Below, piece after piece: positions 18,585 through 50,772 of a stretch of DNA of 52,124 bases. Made by a program: the position numbers and the translations under genes. The notes below the pieces were generated by a model. It saw only the letters and a program-made list of their open reading frames with translations. It was not told the origin of the DNA and did not search any database. Source of the DNA: Streptacidiphilus anmyonensis (GTDB lineage: Bacteria; Actinomycetota; Actinomycetes; Streptomycetales; Streptomycetaceae); contig NZ_BBPQ01000023.1 of NCBI RefSeq assembly GCF_000787855.1, positions 56,314-108,437 of the forward strand, read 5' to 3'. How positions within the stretch are numbered: position 1 is the first letter of the stretch; every line of letters begins with the position of its first letter.

Positions 18585-18856
18585 GAAGAGGACTCCCCCC
18601 TCGGCGCGCCCGCCGCGGCAGGCACCGGTCGGAGCCCTGGGACCTCGGCGGTGCGTCGCGCTGCGGGCGCCGACGAGCCCCCGACCTCCCCGGCCGCACC
18701 GCCGCGCAACAGCATTCCTGAGGACCCCACCGGCCACAAGAGAACGGGAGATGACGATGGATCAGCCCGTCCGTCGGGCCCGGCCCATGCACGCTAGGAT
18801 CCGTCCGCTCTGTGCGCGAACGCGCCGGGGTTCACATGCTCGGGGAGGGGCGGGGG

Positions 18857-21631
18857 ATGTCCAGGCGTATGCCCGGAATGAGACGGCTGGCTCTGGTCGG
18901 TTCAGCGGCTTTGATCGCGATGGCGCCGCTGACGGGAGCGGTCCCTGCGGTGGCGGACTCGGCTCTGCCGTCGACGATGAAGGACGTGCTGGACATCGCG
19001 CCGGTCGACGGGGCGCCGAGCACGACGACACAGGCGGTTTTCTCCAGCGCGACCGGCTCCCTGTTCACGATCAGCGGCGTCTCCGGATACAGCTGGCTCG
19101 ACTACGCCTCGGGGAACGTCACCACGGTCCCGGGCCTGCCGTCGACGACTGATGAGGTCGTCGACGCCGACGGGGAACAGTTCGACCTCTTCGACCCCGG
19201 GACCGGCCTTCTGCGGGTGGGAGATCCGCGGACCGGCGGCCCCTGGACCGCGTTCACCGTGCCGAGCGGATCAGGGCCGGTCGCCGTGCACGGCTCAGAG
19301 GTCCTGACGCACGTGACGGCGACGAACACCTACACGCTCCTCAGCTACGACAGCTCCGGGGCCGCGACGCCGATTCCGATCACCGGCCTGCCGACCGGCG
19401 GCGTCCTCAACCCCTGGATGAGCGGCGACTCCTTCGGCATGGTCCTCGGGTTCGCCACCTCGGACCAGGTGGCCCACTGGGGCGTGGTGGACTGGGCGAC
19501 GGGGGCCTACCGCGAGCCCACATCGCTGTCCGGCGGAAATCCGGGGGCCCTCGGCATCTCAGGGGACAATGCGATCTTCTACCCGCCGGATCCGGCGAAA
19601 TCCGGCCTCAAGATGCTCGTGTACCCGATCGGGGAAGCCCTGTCGGGTGCCGACGTGACACCGCGAAGTCCGAGCGTGGATCTTCCGTTCGTGGCACCTG
19701 CCACCGTGATCGGCGACCATGTGGTCTCCCTGCGTTACAACCAGCTCGTGGACCTGCCGCTGAACGGCGGGTCACCCAAGGTGCTGGACTCGAACGCCTC
19801 CTCGTGGGGCCCCTGGGACCCTGATGCCGTGGTCGCCGGTTCGTACGACCCTGGCGACGTCTCCCACCGGCGTTACACCGTGAAACGCTGGACTCCGGCC
19901 GCGGACGGAAGCCTGACCGGCCAGGTCGTCTACACCCCCACCATCCCGAAGTCGCACCTCGTTTCGCTGTGGATGCAGAGCGGCGTGCTCGGCTACAGCC
20001 GTGACTGGGACCCGACCACCACGACCACGGTGCCCGTCACCGCCGGAGCAGACACGGTCGCCCCCGACGGTCAGCTCGCCCCGGGCTGGGAGCTCCCCAA
20101 GGCCGGCTCGGGCCTGCCGGCGGGAACGCTGGTCCAGGTGGACCGGTCGGGACGGCAACTGCGCACCATCGACACCGGCGGGGCGTGTACCCCCGAGGAC
20201 TTCCAGACCTCGCAGCACTGGCTCTACTGGAACTGCGGCGCCACGGCGCCCGCCGGCGTCTACGACCTCACCTCGGGCGTCCGCATCCCGCTCGCCTCGC
20301 GGGCCCCCTACACCTCGCGCATCAGCGACGGGTTCCTGGTCGACCAGGACCCCACGTCCGGCTCGGTGCGACTGACCGACTTCCACAGCGGAACAGCTTC
20401 CGCACCGGTCGCCATCGGGACAGCAAGCGTGTGGGGCAACGCGCGCCCGGGGGGCAGCTGGGCCGTCGACGCGTCCGACGGACTGATCGCCTACGAGAGC
20501 ACGAGCGATCGGGCCGTCCACGTCATCGATCCCGGGATTCCCCACTCCCCGACGACGGCGTCGGCGCAGGCCTTCACCGGGACCGGAGCCAACCTCAGCA
20601 GCGTCACAGCCCAGGTCTCGCAACCCGTGGACGGTTGGCAGGCAACCGTTGTCAGGAGGTCCACCGGCAAGGTCGTCGCAAGGATGAGCGGCGGGCCCGC
20701 ACATGCCTCCTTCACGGCCACATGGACCGGACCGAAGCCGTACAACGGCATCTACGACTGGTCGGTCAGCGTCCTCCCGCGCGGAGGAACCGCCTACGTA
20801 CCGGTCGCTACCGTGCCCGAACCGGTCATCGACAGTGTGCCCGACCGGCATGTCTACAGCACCGGCGACCACCCGGACCTGCTGGCGATCCGGACCGACG
20901 CCGGAGGCTCGGTCTGGTGGACCCCGAACAACAGCGGACGCATCGTGCCGGAGCAGACCCCGAGTTGCCACCAGAGTGGGACGACCGAGGCCTACCTTCC
21001 TTATCGTGCGCTGATCCCGATCAGCCACCAGGCCGGGAGCGGGTCGAACGACCTGCTCGCCGTCGACCGCTACGGCAACCTCTGGTGGTACCCGACCGTC
21101 GACGCCTCCGGCACCTGCCCGGAGAAGGCCTACGCCCAGCGCGTCGGGTCCGGCTGGGGCCAGTACACGCAGGTCGTCTCGCCCGGGGACCTCAACGGGG
21201 ACGGGCACGACGACCTCGTCGCGCGGGACTCCTCCGGCACGCTGTGGTTCTACGCGGGCCGTGGGGAGGGCGTGTTCGCGCCGCGAGCGCGGATCGGCGG
21301 CGGGTGGAACACCTACACGCACCTGGTCGGCGTCGGCGCGCTGACCGGCTCCGGGTACGGGAACCTGCTGGCGGTGGACGGCTCCGGGGTGTTGTGGCGC
21401 TACGACGCTGACGGGCACGGCGGGTTCCACGCGCGGGTGCGGATCGGCGGCGGGTGGAGCCAGTACAACGACTTCGTCGGGATCGGCGACTGGAACCAGA
21501 ACGGCACCTACGACCTGCTGGCGCGGGACCACAACGGGGTGCTGTGGTTCTACGACGGCACCGGCCAGGGCACGTTCCGTCCGCGCAGCGAGATCAGCGC
21601 CGGGTGGGGCGGGGACTGGGGTCTGTTCTGA
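18857..21631 (+). CDS. Secreted propeller-like protein with C-terminal FG-GAP/VCBS repeats
   Basis: 924 residues. The ATG at 18857 is chosen because a purine-rich GGGGAGGGG lies about 7 nt upstream; an ATG at 18836 is also in frame. A signal peptide precedes VPAVADSALP. Residues about 35-600 look like beta-propeller strands with the landmark TSQHWLYWNCGATAPAGVYD. A beta-sandwich segment follows (about 590-655). Residues about 660-924 are FG-GAP-type repeats with calcium-like loops (GDLNGDGHDDLVARDSSGTL, IGDWNQNGTYDLLARDHNGV) each followed by WFY and IGGGW. The layout closely parallels the large secreted gene at 47.2-50.7 kb, so the two are paralogues. The likely role is extracellular, in adhesion or ligand binding. 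Confidence 0.86.
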   Translation: MSRRMPGMRRLALVGSAALIAMAPLTGAVPAVADSALPSTMKDVLDIAPVDGAPSTTTQAVFSSATGSLFTISGVSGYSWLDYASGNVTTVPGLPSTTDEVVDADGEQFDLFDPGTGLLRVGDPRTGGPWTAFTVPSGSGPVAVHGSEVLTHVTATNTYTLLSYDSSGAATPIPITGLPTGGVLNPWMSGDSFGMVLGFATSDQVAHWGVVDWATGAYREPTSLSGGNPGALGISGDNAIFYPPDPAKSGLKMLVYPIGEALSGADVTPRSPSVDLPFVAPATVIGDHVVSLRYNQLVDLPLNGGSPKVLDSNASSWGPWDPDAVVAGSYDPGDVSHRRYTVKRWTPAADGSLTGQVVYTPTIPKSHLVSLWMQSGVLGYSRDWDPTTTTTVPVTAGADTVAPDGQLAPGWELPKAGSGLPAGTLVQVDRSGRQLRTIDTGGACTPEDFQTSQHWLYWNCGATAPAGVYDLTSGVRIPLASRAPYTSRISDGFLVDQDPTSGSVRLTDFHSGTASAPVAIGTASVWGNARPGGSWAVDASDGLIAYESTSDRAVHVIDPGIPHSPTTASAQAFTGTGANLSSVTAQVSQPVDGWQATVVRRSTGKVVARMSGGPAHASFTATWTGPKPYNGIYDWSVSVLPRGGTAYVPVATVPEPVIDSVPDRHVYSTGDHPDLLAIRTDAGGSVWWTPNNSGRIVPEQTPSCHQSGTTEAYLPYRALIPISHQAGSGSNDLLAVDRYGNLWWYPTVDASGTCPEKAYAQRVGSGWGQYTQVVSPGDLNGDGHDDLVARDSSGTLWFYAGRGEGVFAPRARIGGGWNTYTHLVGVGALTGSGYGNLLAVDGSGVLWRYDADGHGGFHARVRIGGGWSQYNDFVGIGDWNQNGTYDLLARDHNGVLWFYDGTGQGTFRPRSEISAGWGGDWGLF

Positions 21632-45122: not shown

Positions 45123-46985
45123 ATGTCGGCAGCCACCGCCGCCACCGAAGAGTCCACGCCGCATCCGATACCCGCGGCCGCCGACCCCGCGGAGAAGCAC
45201 CGCCTCTCCGCGCTCGGCGGCCTGGCCGCGCTCTCCCTGGACGCCATGGCGTCCGTGGCGTACGGGCCCGAGGCGATCGTGCTGGTGCTGGCCACCGCCG
45301 GCGCGCACGGGCTCGGCTTCACCCTCCCGGTCACCCTCGCGATCGCCGCGCTGCTGGCCGTGCTGACCTTCTCCTACCGCCAGGTCATCGCCGCGTTCCC
45401 GGACGGCGGCGGCTCCTACGCCGTCGCCAAGACCCACCTCGGCCACCGCACCGCGCTGGTCGCGGCGGCATCCCTGGTCATCGACTACGTGCTGAACGTG
45501 GCCGTCTCGGTGACGGCCGGCGTGGCCGCGCTGACCTCCGCGTTCCCGTCCCTGTACGGACAGCGCGTGTGGATCTGCCTGGCCGTGCTGGCGCTGGTCA
45601 CCGCGATCAACCTGCGCGGCATCGCCGAGTCGGCGCGCGCCTTCATGATCCCGACGGCGGTCTTCGTCGCGTCGATCCTCGGCGTCATCGTCGTCGGCCT
45701 GTTCCGCGCCCACCCGGTCGCGCTGCTGGCCGCCGGGCACAGCTCCGTCGTCGCCTCCAACGCCACCTCCGTCGGCGTCCTGCTGCTGCTTCGCGCGTTC
45801 GCGTCCGGCTGCTCCGCGCTGACGGGCGTCGAGGCGATCGCCAACGCGGTCCCCTCGTTCCGCGTGCCGCGCGTCAAGCGCGCCCAGCACACCGAGATCG
45901 CCCTGGGCGGGCTGCTCGGCGTGATGCTGATCGGGCTGGCCGTGCTCATCGGCCGGTTCCACCTTCAACCGCGCGACGGCGTCACCGTGCTGGCCCAGCT
46001 GACCGACGCCTCCTTCGGCCACGGCTTCCTCTTCTACCTGGTGCAGTTCGCCACCATGGTGCTGCTGGCGCTCGCCGCGAACACCTCCTTCGGCGGCCTG
46101 CCGGTGCTGCTGCGGCTGCTGGCCCGTGACCACCACCTGCCGCACGTCTTCGCGCTCCGCGCGGACCACCAGGTCTACCGGCACGGCGTGCTGGCGCTGG
46201 CCGGGGCCTCGGCCGTGCTGCTGGTCGCCTCCGGCGGCGACGTGAACAGCCTCGTCCCGCTGTTCGCGATCGGCGTCTTCGTCGGCTTCACCATCGCCCA
46301 GGTCGGCATGGTCCGGCACTGGTGGCTCTCCCGCTGCGCCGGCTGGCGCGGCAAGGCGGCCGTGAACGGATTCGGCGCGCTGCTGACCGCGGCGGCCACG
46401 GTGGTCGAGACGCTGACGAAGTTCACCGAGGGCGCCTGGCTGGTCGTCACCCTGCTGCCGCTGCTGGTCCTGCTGTTCACCGCCGTCCGGCGCGGCTACG
46501 CCAGGATCGGCGAGAAGCTGGAGCTGGGCGTCGTCCCGGCAGCGCCGGAGCCGCGCCACTCGCTCGTCGTCGTCCCCGTGGGCGCGCTGTCGCGCCTGAC
46601 GCGCGAGGCGCTGTCCGCGGCGGTCTCGCTCGGCGACGAGGTGGTCGCCGTGACGGTCGTCCCCGGCGAGGCGGACGAGGAGGAGCGCGCGGCGGCGGAG
46701 TCCCTGCGGCGGGACTGGGAGCTGTGGCAGCCCGGGGTCCCGCTCGTCGAGATCCCCTCGGCCCGCCGCGAGTTGGCCAGGCCGCTCGTGCGGTACGTGC
46801 GGGAGCTGCGCGCGGAGGACGGCGGGCACGCGTACGACCGCGTCACCGTCCTGGTGCCGGAGGTCGAGCCGGAGCACTGGTGGACCTGGCCCCTGCACAA
46901 CCAGCGCGGCGCGCTGATCAGCCGGGCCGTGCGACGCGGTACGGACGCCACCGTCTGCCGACTGCGGCTGCGACTGAACGGATAG
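45123..46985 (+). CDS. APC superfamily permease, KimA/YdaO-like (second paralogue)
   Basis: 620 residues; ATG at 45123 with GGGAGGGG just upstream. It parallels the divergent permease in order: SLDAMASVAYGPEAIVLVLA, FPDGGGSYAVAKTHLGHRTA, FASGCSALTGVEAIANAVPS, LAANTSFGGLPVLLRLLARD and TKFTEGAWLVVTLLPLLVLL, then a cytosolic C-terminal domain (about 470-620, HSLVVVPVGALSRLTREALS). It is shorter at the C-terminus than its neighbour. As with the neighbour, cation or amino acid transport is likely and potassium uptake is a hypothesis. The N-terminal 30 residues are Ala/Thr-rich and probably disordered. Confidence 0.8.
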   Translation: MSAATAATEESTPHPIPAAADPAEKHRLSALGGLAALSLDAMASVAYGPEAIVLVLATAGAHGLGFTLPVTLAIAALLAVLTFSYRQVIAAFPDGGGSYAVAKTHLGHRTALVAAASLVIDYVLNVAVSVTAGVAALTSAFPSLYGQRVWICLAVLALVTAINLRGIAESARAFMIPTAVFVASILGVIVVGLFRAHPVALLAAGHSSVVASNATSVGVLLLLRAFASGCSALTGVEAIANAVPSFRVPRVKRAQHTEIALGGLLGVMLIGLAVLIGRFHLQPRDGVTVLAQLTDASFGHGFLFYLVQFATMVLLALAANTSFGGLPVLLRLLARDHHLPHVFALRADHQVYRHGVLALAGASAVLLVASGGDVNSLVPLFAIGVFVGFTIAQVGMVRHWWLSRCAGWRGKAAVNGFGALLTAAATVVETLTKFTEGAWLVVTLLPLLVLLFTAVRRGYARIGEKLELGVVPAAPEPRHSLVVVPVGALSRLTREALSAAVSLGDEVVAVTVVPGEADEEERAAAESLRRDWELWQPGVPLVEIPSARRELARPLVRYVRELRAEDGGHAYDRVTVLVPEVEPEHWWTWPLHNQRGALISRAVRRGTDATVCRLRLRLNG

Positions 46986-47221
46986 GACCGCCCAAGAGCG
47001 GACGGGAGGCCGAAATCCGACCTTCGGCGCAAGGGGTACACGCCGAGGAAAGTGCGTCGCCGCAGGTCAGTGGTGGCTGCTAGGCTCCGCCTGCGCCATG
47101 GGGGGGAGCCCGAGGCCGCCGCCGGCTCGCCCGCCAGGGCTTGAGCACAGGACCTTCGGCACGCGGCATCGGTCGGCACCGTCCGTGCGCGATTCGAGAC
47201 GTTCCTCCTGAGGGAGAGCCT
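46986..47221. other. Short intergenic region before the large secreted gene
   Basis: 236 bases. No gene, promoter pair or hairpin was clear to me. The last bases hold a ribosome site for the next gene (GGGAGA, 4 nt from its GTG). Confidence 0.4.
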
Positions 47222-50200
47222 GTGCTGTCCGACCGTTCCCGGGCACTGAGCACGGCCGCCGCGGCTTTCACCGCGGCGGCCGTCGCCGTCGCCCTGACCG
47301 TGACCGGCAGTGCCGTCGCCACGGCCGCCACCGCCACCGGGACCACCCCGGCGAGCAGCGGCGCCGCGGGCATCGGCACGCCGGTCGACTTCCCCGGCAC
47401 CACCGCCTCCGCGCCGGCCGCGGAGACGCTGATCAGCGCGGGGAGCACCGGGTTCCTGCACCAGCGCGCAGGCAGCAACGACCTGCTGTGGACCCGATAC
47501 GACACCGGCGCGACCGTCACGGCCTTCACGCTGTCCCCGCGCGTCGTCCCGGCGAACCTCCGGCTGACGATCCCCGGGGAGTTCGGGGCCGGCTCCGACG
47601 TCGTCGCGTCCTTCGACTGGAGCACCCAGTCCTCGGTCACGCTCTACGACATGGGCGCGGGCGGCGCGCAGAGCGTCGTGTCGCTCAACGGGCTGATGTA
47701 CAAGGGAACGTACGGCAGCACCGTGGTGGCGGTCGGCCTCGCCGGCTCCGCAGCCGGGCCGGGCGTGCACCTGCTCACTCCGGACGGGGCGGGCGGGACC
47801 AAGGACGTCCTGGTCACCGGCCTGCCGGCCGCGGCCGCGGGACGGGCGACCCAGGTGTTGGCCGGCGACGCCTCCGCGGTCGTGGTCCAGTACACGGACG
47901 CCTCCGGCTACCACCAGGCCCTGGTCGACCTGACCTCGGGCGCCGCCACCCCGGTCAGCCTCAACGCCCCTGCCGCGTCCGTCCTCCCCGCACAGGTGGC
48001 CCTCTCGCCCACCTCGATCGTGTTCTGGGCCGGGGGCGGCAGCGCCGTCCACGTCTTCTCCCGGTCGGACGTCTCGGCCGCGCCCGTGGCCGTGCAGACC
48101 CCGGCGAACTCGGTGAGCCAGCCCACCCCTTCCGTCGCCGAGGTCGGCGGGGCCGTCCTGGCGGTCCAGAACCCGCGAGCGGCGGCGCTCAGCGGCGGCG
48201 CGCTGACGGCGACGCCGGAAGCGGGCGGGGCGAACACCTCGCTGCTCGCGGTGACCGACGACGCCTTGCTCCCCACGCCCGACGGCGGCGCCCTGATCGC
48301 GGGCACCACCCAGGGCGGCGAGTGGGGGTTCTACCGGGTCGCCCCGGGGTCCTCCGGACCGGCCGCCACGGAGGTCACCCCGCTCTACCGCGCGCCGTCC
48401 CCCGTCGCGGGCCTCGCGTTGGAGCGTGGCACGGCCACGGTGTGGAGCGCCGACTCCGGGACGATCTGGAGCCGCACGCTCACGGGCGGAGCCTTCGGCG
48501 CGCCGACGCGCATCGCGTCCACCGGAACGGCGTACGGGCCGATCATCGCGACCGGCGACGGCCAGGTGGTGTACGCCGACGGCGGGGCCCTCGTCAAGGC
48601 GGGCAGCTCCGGCACAAGCGGCGGCGTCGGATCGCCCACCGGTTCGCCCGTCGACGCCGACGGACGCTACGCGCTCTCCGACAGCGGCGCGCTGATCGCC
48701 TCGGACTTCGGGGCCCACGACATCCTCGGACCGGTCGGCGCTCCCGCCAAGCCCTCGGGGCAGCGTCCGGGCGCCGTATGGGGCGGCTTCGCCTACGTCG
48801 GCTCCGGTCGGACGGGCGCCGTCACCATCGAGGACCTGGCCCACCAGCGGGTGGCCGGCGTCGTCGACAGCGGCGCGCCCTGCGTCGCCCCCGAGGTCCA
48901 GGTCGTCGGCCGCTGGCTGTACTGGACCTGCGACACCCACACGGCCGGCATCCTCGACATGGCCGACGGGGCCCGTTACCGGCTGCCGGCGAGCGGCGCC
49001 GGTTACGACGACGCGCTGCTGGGCGACGGCTTCGTCGTCCACCACGACGCGACGGCCGGGCAGTTGGTGCTCGACGATGTCCACACCGACGCGGACGCCT
49101 CGACTACGACGGTGGCCGCGCTCGGCGGCGGGACCACGGCGCCCGACCGCGACCTGTCCTGGACCGTGGACCGCTACAGCGACGAGCTCGGCTGGCACGG
49201 CGACGACAACGTCTTCGACGTCGCGCCCGTCGTCGGCATCCCCGCTTCCGCCGCGTGGACCCCGACACCCGGCAAGGCCGCCTCCGTGCCCGCGTGGGTG
49301 ACGCCGGTGGCGTTCACCTACGGCCAGGGCCTGACGGACTTCCACGAGTGCTCGGGCGTCCTGATGGCGCCGATCCGCGTGCTCGCCACGGCCGACTGCT
49401 ACACCGGCCACGGCAGCAACAGCTTCGGCTGGAACTACAACCGCTCCACCGGCACGCTCAATGGCGGCGGCAGCAACCCCTCGTACCTGCTCGACCAGCG
49501 CTACAACGCGGCGACGGGGCAGGACGACGTCAGTGTGACGCGCTCCTACGACAACCCGTCGAAGAGCGTCGCCGTCCTCGCAGGAGCGTCCGACGGCGCC
49601 CTGTACCGTCCCGGCACCACTGCGACCTTCTACTCCTGGTCCACGCTGGGTTGGGGCGGCTCGGGCGGCATCCGCACCCCGCATGTGGAGACGGTGCAGC
49701 TCCAGTCCGCGGCGACCTGCGCGCAGCTCCTCGGCCACGCGCTGCCGTCCGGCTCCATCTGCACGGCCCCGGCCCCGGGCGCGGCCTGGGTGGCGCCGCA
49801 GGACCAGTGCACGGGTGACGCGGGCGGCGCGCTCGTCGCCGGCGGCAAGGTGATCGCGACGTCCGCGACGCCCGAGAGCTCCTGCGCTTCCACCTCGGTC
49901 CGCGTCTACACGGCGACGGCACCCAAGATCGCCTTGGAGCGCGGCTGGAGCCGGGACCTCGGCGTGTCCAACTACGGCATGGGCTTCGGGGGCATCACCG
50001 CGAAGTCCTCCGACGGCCTGCTGACCGCCTTCTGCTCCAGTGACATGCACGGCTGCCTCAACGGCGGCGTGGGCCAGCTGAGCGACATCCAGAAGCAGTT
50101 CAACCTCGTGCTCGCCGCGGGCGACATGGACGGGGACGGCAACCTCGACCTTCTCATCCGCAGCAAGTCGGGCGCGCTGTACCGGTTCTGGGGCCTGGGC

Positions 50201-50734
50201 GTGGGCGTTGTCGAGCTGAACAGCAACAAGAAGACCCTGCTGGGCACCGGTTGGAACCAGTACACCCGCATCCTCGCCCCCGGCGACCTCACCGGTGACG
50301 GGATCACCGACGTGGTGGCCATCGACCACTCCGGCGTGATGTGGCTCTACCCCGGCACCGCGAACGGCGGTCTCGGCAGCCGGATCCGGGTCAGCAGCGG
50401 CTGGAACTCCTTCAACCTCGTGGCCGGGAACGGCGACCTGACCGGCGACGGCATCGCCGACCTGGTGGCGCGGGACTCCGGCGGGCGGCTGTGGACCTTC
50501 GTGGGCGACGGCCACGGCGGGTTCCAGGCGCACCACGTGTACGTCGGCTCGGGCTGGGGCCGCTACAACGCCGTCGTCCTCGGCGGCGACCTGGACGGGC
50601 AGGGCCACGAGCAGCTCATCGGCCGCCTGCCCAACGGCCAGTGCTACCTCTACACCTCCAACGGCGCGGGCGGCTTCACCTCCAACGGCGCGGTCGGCGG
50701 CAACAACTGGGAGCGCTACGCCCAGCTGAGCTGA
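47222..50734 (+). CDS. Large secreted protein with degenerate trypsin-like domain and FG-GAP repeats
   Basis: 1,170 residues. GTG start at 47222, with GGGAGA 4 nt upstream. Signal peptide to about residue 35. Residues about 50-680 are propeller-like beta repeats, with RWLYWTCDTHTAGILDMADG aligning with the paralogue at 18.9-21.6 kb. Residues about 685-930 read like an S1 serine protease: ECSGVLMAPIRVLATADCY, DDVSVTRSYDNP and CTGDAGGALVAGG. Asp725 replaces the catalytic His of TAAHC and Ala867 the catalytic Ser of GDSGG, so the triad is lost. Residues about 960-1170 are FG-GAP repeats (AAGDMDGDGNLDLLIRSKSG, GNGDLTGDGIADLVARDSGG). It is probably an extracellular binding protein using a dead protease domain as scaffold. 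A terminator follows. Confidence 0.87.
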   Translation: MLSDRSRALSTAAAAFTAAAVAVALTVTGSAVATAATATGTTPASSGAAGIGTPVDFPGTTASAPAAETLISAGSTGFLHQRAGSNDLLWTRYDTGATVTAFTLSPRVVPANLRLTIPGEFGAGSDVVASFDWSTQSSVTLYDMGAGGAQSVVSLNGLMYKGTYGSTVVAVGLAGSAAGPGVHLLTPDGAGGTKDVLVTGLPAAAAGRATQVLAGDASAVVVQYTDASGYHQALVDLTSGAATPVSLNAPAASVLPAQVALSPTSIVFWAGGGSAVHVFSRSDVSAAPVAVQTPANSVSQPTPSVAEVGGAVLAVQNPRAAALSGGALTATPEAGGANTSLLAVTDDALLPTPDGGALIAGTTQGGEWGFYRVAPGSSGPAATEVTPLYRAPSPVAGLALERGTATVWSADSGTIWSRTLTGGAFGAPTRIASTGTAYGPIIATGDGQVVYADGGALVKAGSSGTSGGVGSPTGSPVDADGRYALSDSGALIASDFGAHDILGPVGAPAKPSGQRPGAVWGGFAYVGSGRTGAVTIEDLAHQRVAGVVDSGAPCVAPEVQVVGRWLYWTCDTHTAGILDMADGARYRLPASGAGYDDALLGDGFVVHHDATAGQLVLDDVHTDADASTTTVAALGGGTTAPDRDLSWTVDRYSDELGWHGDDNVFDVAPVVGIPASAAWTPTPGKAASVPAWVTPVAFTYGQGLTDFHECSGVLMAPIRVLATADCYTGHGSNSFGWNYNRSTGTLNGGGSNPSYLLDQRYNAATGQDDVSVTRSYDNPSKSVAVLAGASDGALYRPGTTATFYSWSTLGWGGSGGIRTPHVETVQLQSAATCAQLLGHALPSGSICTAPAPGAAWVAPQDQCTGDAGGALVAGGKVIATSATPESSCASTSVRVYTATAPKIALERGWSRDLGVSNYGMGFGGITAKSSDGLLTAFCSSDMHGCLNGGVGQLSDIQKQFNLVLAAGDMDGDGNLDLLIRSKSGALYRFWGLGVGVVELNSNKKTLLGTGWNQYTRILAPGDLTGDGITDVVAIDHSGVMWLYPGTANGGLGSRIRVSSGWNSFNLVAGNGDLTGDGIADLVARDSGGRLWTFVGDGHGGFQAHHVYVGSGWGRYNAVVLGGDLDGQGHEQLIGRLPNGQCYLYTSNGAGGFTSNGAVGGNNWERYAQLS

Positions 50735-50772
50735 GCCCGGGCGCGGACACACGCACTCGCGCACTCGCGCAC

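Follow-up and report, generated by a model that had tools for sequence, protein, structure and literature searches.

A predicted trypsin-fold pseudoprotease domain between a WD40-like region and FG-GAP repeats in a putative secreted protein of Streptacidiphilus anmyonensis

The window, i.e., the whole stretch of 52,124 nucleotides of Streptacidiphilus anmyonensis DNA that was analysed, encodes what we read, with a probability of roughly two in three, as a secreted multi-module protein in which a trypsin-fold (S1) domain has been repurposed for a non-catalytic task, most likely of an adhesive or scaffolding kind. By sequence criteria the domain is a pseudoprotease: the fold is kept, the catalytic residues are lost, and this state is conserved and under selection. 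The idea that a pseudoprotease has been kept as a module, advanced earlier from the DNA sequence alone, is also the reading that best suits the data reported below, that is, an S1 fold without His57 and Ser195 in a clade whose 14 members are all alike in this respect.

The gene lies in a real open frame of the forward strand (47141-50734). Within this frame, the GTG codon at 47222 is likely the start of a protein of 1170 residues, since the Shine-Dalgarno-like sequence GAGGGAGAG (47210-47218) precedes it and a signal-peptide-like sequence follows. No C-terminal anchor was evident by eye in the window protein, which is thus probably released or held non-covalently, and no NCBIfam family was found for it. 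A 1422-residue open frame runs antisense to the whole gene (46496-50764, - strand); high G+C codon use probably explains it, and it is unlikely to be a gene. The features of the locus are the following:

47222..50734, + strand: secreted propeller-pseudoS1-FG-GAP gene, 1170 aa, likely GTG start (open frame, Shine-Dalgarno-like site, hydrophobic N-terminus, ortholog)
47222..47335, + strand: signal peptide, probable, covering roughly residues 1-38 (translation read by eye: a short charged start and a stretch rich in Ala and Val)
47372..49237, + strand: N-terminal region of all-beta type, probably two WD40-like propellers in tandem (AlphaFold2 model, VIA-align)
49283..49969, + strand: predicted S1 (trypsin-fold) pseudoprotease domain, residues 688-916 (PF00089, profile against PDB, model and fold searches)
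49394..49396, + strand: Asp725 replacing the catalytic His57 (codon GAC; column table)
49526..49528, + strand: Asp769 at the Asp102 position, kept in the window protein (codon GAC; column table)
49820..49822, + strand: Ala867 replacing the Ser195 nucleophile, GDAGG (codon GCG; column table)
49865..49870, + strand: Ala882-Thr883 replacing Ser214-Trp215 of the substrate pocket (column table)
49901..49903, + strand: Arg894 at position 226, S1 pocket wall (column table)
50087..50731, + strand: C-terminal FG-GAP repeats, about residues 956-1170 (PF13517 in three stretches, PF01839 in three stretches)

The FG-GAP repeats of the window protein are recognised by Pfam (PF13517, E 2.4e-13, 50.9 bits versus a cut-off of 26.9). 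As for the central domain, the HMM search returned PF00089 (Trypsin) with an E value of 1.3e-10 and 41.9 bits, well over the curated cut-off of 20.6; moreover, a profile of 12 relatives matched solved trypsins in the PDB (E 1.6e-16) and aligned the columns of the two replaced residues, Asp and Ala, with the His and the Ser of the Saccharopolyspora erythraea trypsin. AlphaFold2, run on 14 sequences, gave a domain model (pLDDT 81.8, pTM 0.86) of the trypsin type: the best Foldseek match (E 1.1e-11) is the S. erythraea trypsin, and VIA-align gave Z scores of 19.5-20.7 against trypsins among the 50 matches listed. As judged from the profiles and the predicted structure, the domain belongs to the S1 (trypsin) family, with its two-barrel fold. 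The sequence-only reading, which had proposed S1 membership, agrees with both the HMM search and the structure prediction, and its residue numbers are exact when counted from the GTG at 47222 (Asp725, codon GAC; Ala867, codon GCG). The interval that it gave for the domain, 49349-49830, does contain S1 sequence, but the true extent is longer (49283-49969).

To which homologues the unusual residues extend was read from a profile search of 394 genomes of the family, which defined a clade of 14 loci in 12 genomes scoring at least 266.9 bits; below them the scores fall to 96 bits, for a broken gene in genome G254, and then to 77-87 bits. The broken locus is excluded from the 14 and is counted only in the 15-locus totals used below for the propeller coupling. 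The clade members belong to three genus groups (g1, g6, and g9) and share 37-79% identity with the window domain. According to the column table, all 14 have Asp57, Ala195, Ala214, Thr215, and Arg226, and none has His57 or Ser195. Position 102 is Asp in nine members, the window protein included, and Ala in the other five. The claim that the catalytic triad had been replaced thus stands for His57 and Ser195, two of the three residues, but not for Asp102, which is still present in the window protein as Asp769. That the cysteines and the Gly-rich loop are kept was confirmed throughout the clade: the cysteines of the putative disulphides 42-58 and 191-220 occur in 14/14 members (the table records the cysteines only), and GDxGG is retained. 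The longest nearly invariant stretch of the clade is the loop of the former nucleophile, C-x-GDAGGAL; the alignment further shows no variation at Asp194, at one Glu position, or at one Arg position.

The lower-scoring part of the same search contains active-looking relatives, which we call active cousins; 11 of its 23 rows were tabulated. These proteins (G249, G735, G259, G690b, and others) share with the clade the S1 domain, the C-terminal FG-GAP repeats, and the cysteine frame, but differ in having His57, Asp102, and Ser195 in 11/11 cases, as well as an [IV][IV]GG activation motif of the Ile16 type ahead of the domain (11/11, versus 0/14 in the clade). Their pocket has Ser214 in 11/11 and Trp215 in 10/11, with a variable residue at 226 that is never Arg. 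Three further lower-scoring rows (G245, G715, and G269) have TAAHC and GDSGG. In the tree, a single branch with 100/100 support separates the 14 clade members from the 11 active cousins. In genome G105, an S1-FG-GAP protein about 3 kb from a clade member (locus L077, 9502-11661, + strand) keeps TAAHC and has GDDGG replacing GDSGG; it lies inside the active group in the tree (97/88).

These columns indicate that the window protein is not an active S1 peptidase: the triad is incomplete, and the activation N-terminus and the Ser214-Trp215 pair are missing. Reasoning from the mechanism, proteolysis by the S1 route would be lost because both the nucleophile and the general base are missing. The substrate pocket looks altered as well, with Trp215 and Ser214 gone and an invariant Arg at 226; substrate-like or canonical inhibitor-like binding would then be unlikely, so that any binding would presumably occur through another surface. 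Hence the S1 fold appears repurposed, with the nucleophile, the base, the pocket residues, and the activation N-terminus replaced and the disulphide frame and the GDxGG loop kept. Other residues of the domain could, in principle, support an activity different from S1 proteolysis, and an enzyme of another kind might work through Asp57 with Asp102 or another residue. Asp57 is found in 14/14 members, Asp102 in 9/14 (the window protein among them), and the invariant Asp194, Glu, and Arg positions might serve such a site; we nevertheless give this possibility only a slight chance, since Ala195 offers no nucleophile, the pocket is remodelled, and Asp102 is Ala in 5/14, which specifically disfavours a catalytic site shifted to the Asp57 and Asp102 pair. 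To our knowledge, no trypsin-fold enzyme uses such a pair.

An ortholog of the whole protein is found in Streptacidiphilus melanogenes (Streptomycetaceae); it is of similar length, has 83% identity in the best segment, and carries identical codons at Asp725 and Ala867 (GAC and GCG); it was the sole match in a contig scan with the full-length protein. The window and S. melanogenes also have flanking genes in common, which were not found in the 12-13 kb around the related loci of genomes G058 and G070. Outside the window's genome and G118, no clade member was retrieved from 394 genomes of the class (single-sequence search, E 1e-10) or from 296 genomes of the phylum (profile search, E 1e-20), the family, class, and phylum draws being overlapping samples; the plasmids did not give any match to the clade either. 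A comparison of the window gene with its S. melanogenes ortholog by the Nei-Gojobori method gave an overall dN/dS of 0.39; taken separately, the propeller part has 0.42, the S1 domain 0.35, and the FG-GAP part 0.21. The S1 domain is under purifying selection. A decaying protease gene under relaxed selection, or a sequencing error, might in principle produce lost catalytic residues, and the broken copy in G254, with its in-frame stop, shows that the domain can be lost; for the window gene this explanation is very unlikely, and we give it next to no weight, in view of the same residues at 14 loci in 12 genomes, the long open frames, and the dN/dS of 0.35. The comparison of the triad columns with close homologues, suggested together with the original observation, gave the replacement in 14/14 members, so that it is no error and no loss confined to this protein; a local sequencing error or pseudogene was ruled out on these 14 loci and on purifying selection. 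Instead, residue fixation and the conservation of the GDAGG loop argue for a domain with a function to fulfil.

The N-terminal 655 residues yielded an all-beta AlphaFold2 model (pLDDT 80.6, pTM 0.69), for which Foldseek matched WD40-type propellers; VIA-align aligned 274 residues with the RbBP5 propeller (Z 19.7) and 534 with the tandem WD protein Pwp2 (Z 18.4, rmsd 8.0). Pfam did not retrieve any family from this part at E 0.1. On the predicted model, then, it is WD40-like in fold and not a WD40 family member by sequence profile. The single-propeller matches span model residues 18 to 639, which suggests that the region is probably a pair of propellers, one being inserted in the other. From the N-terminus onwards, the protein, which would be exported, would thus comprise its signal peptide, the WD40-like double propeller, the trypsin-fold domain, and the FG-GAP repeats. 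The window holds a second putative secreted FG-GAP protein of 939 aa (18812-21631, + strand) with a propeller-type N-terminal part and without S1; its relationship to the N-terminal part of the 47222-50734 protein is very distant.

Propeller and pseudo-S1 occur in one gene at 4 of the 15 loci (the window, S. melanogenes, G058, and G070). The sequence-only reading had called the combination of the domain with propeller and FG-GAP repeats unusual. S1 joined to FG-GAP is in fact common in the family, and a case from Streptomyces avermitilis was reported in 2008 (PMC2605481); it is the fusion of propeller, pseudo-S1, and FG-GAP, at four loci, that is unusual. In G070 (locus L071, 4645-6672, + strand) the propeller part is split over frames, which may be an assembly error; this genome is rated 76% complete. 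The 11 unfused loci, the broken one in G254 counted, can be arranged as follows on the basis of the few kilobases fetched around each:

i. Loci with a separate propeller-FG-GAP gene (4/11), placed upstream in G699, G690, and G254 and downstream in G075. In G699 and G690, the stop of the upstream propeller gene and the start of the pseudo-S1 gene overlap by one base (TGATG), which suggests translational coupling.

ii. Loci without any propeller gene near pseudo-S1 (7/11).

In G254, the interrupted clade member (locus L112) has its in-frame TAG and stands directly 3' of the propeller-FG-GAP gene. Seen from the propeller side, no pseudo-S1 was found beside the short-group propeller genes at 8/8 other fetched loci, nor beside the propeller arrays of G051 and G087. 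A pairing of propeller and pseudo-S1 as a general rule was consequently rejected, 7/11 and 8/8 loci being against it. An origin of the fusion from gene pairs by deletion is likewise unsupported, as the fused propellers form a branch of their own (100/100, length 1.18), distant from the propellers of the gene pairs.

In a different account, S1 separates the propeller from the FG-GAP repeats as a structural spacer, or assists folding there, and binds nothing itself, so that these two may do all the binding. A sister architecture (the second gene of locus L110) has an FlgD Ig-like, spacer-like domain (PF13860, E 7.3e-9) in the place of S1, and S1 evolves faster than the FG-GAP part (0.35 versus 0.21). 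On the other hand, at 10 intact loci the domain directly follows an apparent signal peptide, without a propeller, and there is nothing to space on the N-terminal side; moreover, the invariance of positions 57, 195, 214, 215, and 226 in 14/14 members is not what a spacer would lead us to expect. We regard the spacer as rather unlikely, though worth keeping in mind.

In the genome that contains the window, FG-GAP matches at E 1e-6 occur in six reading frames, three of which also have an S1 domain: the 1170-aa protein, a shorter clade member on contig C145, and a protein on contig C119. None of the three has His57 and Ser195. The C119 protein (L002 / L153) has Ser57, Asp102, and Ala195 and is near identical (99%) to one in G037 (L139). 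When its S1 domain (L002) was used as a query, 58 of 200 family genomes were matched, in some cases at several tandem copies; three or four His-less S1 genes follow one another within a few kilobases in G136:C1 and C14, G125:C1, G151:C4, and G053:C5. In 30 sequences taken among the best matches to this His-less query, and hence a biased sample, position 57 is Ser in 26, Gly in two, Ala in one, and Thr in one, never His; position 195 is Thr in 20, Ala in eight, and Ser in two; and position 102 is Asp in all 30. Eight extra fragments, mostly cut by the end of the locus, were excluded from the 30; they do not have His at 57, and some are gapped there. This second group resembles the clade in having S1 domains without His57, often with FG-GAP, but it differs in its Ser/Gly/Ala/Thr57, its Thr/Ala/Ser195, and its Asp102 in 30/30, the clade having fixed Asp57 and Ala195. 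Ten of its proteins were scanned for partner domains: FG-GAP was found in six (one of which also has a B-lectin), a ricin-type lectin in one, and no further domain over the cut-off in three.

In a tree with 25 of the 30 sequences, the second group forms a group of its own (100/100), and in the first tree it is separated from the clade by active lines (90/82). According to the AU test, a single His-less clade is not rejected (p 0.546), the held tree being 1.45 log units better; two independent losses of His57 are therefore not claimed. On the basis of these residues, inactive S1 domains seem to be common in Streptomycetaceae. An ordinary trypsin with IVGG, TAAHC, and GDSGG, without an FG-GAP match, is also encoded in the window's genome (L001, contig C152), which apparently keeps an active S1 enzyme as well.

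In animals, S1 homologues without activity have been studied extensively. The inactivated S1 folds of the scabies mite (SMIPP-S; 3h7o and 3h7t) rank among the best structural matches to our model, with VIA-align Z scores of 20.4 and 20.3, tied with many active S1 structures; these are animal proteins with 14-16% identity, and kinship beyond the fold is not implied. The clearest bacterial case of an inactive protease homologue that we met is MamO of magnetotactic bacteria (PMC4794232), a serine protease homologue whose active site has degenerated and which is retained for a non-catalytic role in magnetite formation. In this respect it resembles the window protein; it differs in binding a transition metal through a di-histidine motif (PMC4794232), whereas the window protein is predicted to be secreted and multi-module, and metal binding is not indicated. 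MamO also activates MamE-dependent proteolysis (PMC4794232), and the clade, too, might be imagined to partner and regulate active proteases or their inhibitors, or to act as a decoy for them, as in the MamO-MamE pair or the insect serine protease homologues, all the more as a clade member and an active S1-FG-GAP cousin co-occur in G123 and G690. In the window's genome, however, the matches to the clade profile at E 1e-20 or better are two, both pseudo, and none of the three S1-FG-GAP proteins pairs His57 with Ser195, although the ordinary trypsin L001 is present; Thr215 and Arg226 would, in addition, make it unlikely that the S1 pocket binds a partner in the manner of a canonical inhibitor. 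We therefore judge a regulatory role improbable.

The nearest described architecture is the Tryp-(FG-GAP) protein NP_825221.1 of S. avermitilis, a trypsin domain followed by FG-GAP modules in Streptomyces (PMC2605481). The survey calls it a trypsin protease; the window protein is without His57 and Ser195 and has an additional N-terminal region, probably a double propeller. The same survey counts 42 putative inactive homologues among 966 prokaryotic serine proteases belonging to five families (PMC2605481). In the titles and abstracts of the open-access papers searched, no account of the clade, of the fixed Asp57/Ala195 site, of the remodelled pocket, or of the propeller coupling was found. Within that scope, trypsin combined with FG-GAP and a repurposed bacterial protease were known already, and the Asp57/Ala195 clade, the remodelled pocket, and the propeller coupling appear to be new.

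Going back to the adhesive or scaffolding reading, the pseudo-S1 domain would offer one protein-binding surface beside those of the propeller and of the FG-GAP repeats, and the whole protein would act as an extracellular adhesin or scaffold. Binding is the simplest task that can be proposed because the partners are propellers, FG-GAP repeats, and, in the second group, lectins; the lectin and FG-GAP partners of that group fit it. From the sequence, binding or scaffolding as the function is put forward with less certainty than the lack of proteolysis.

A wider proposal, which we hold tentatively and at somewhat less than even odds, is that the trypsin fold now serves the secreted proteins of Streptomycetaceae as a standard binding module without catalytic function; it would be fused or translationally coupled to propellers, FG-GAP repeats, and lectins, and represented by the Asp57/Ala195 clade with its plugged pocket and by the larger group with Ser57 and Thr/Ala195. 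If this is true, the two groups would correspond, in bacteria, to the serine protease homologues of animals and would be exposed on the mycelium or in its surroundings. The occurrence of the clade in three genera and of the His-less group in 58 of 200 family genomes suggests that many trypsin-family matches in Streptomycetaceae are not proteases, and their annotation would be corrected. These proteins would also be a manageable group in which to study the binding partners of a protease fold that no longer cuts, and the propeller gene pairs and fusions would provide the first candidate partner for pseudo-S1.
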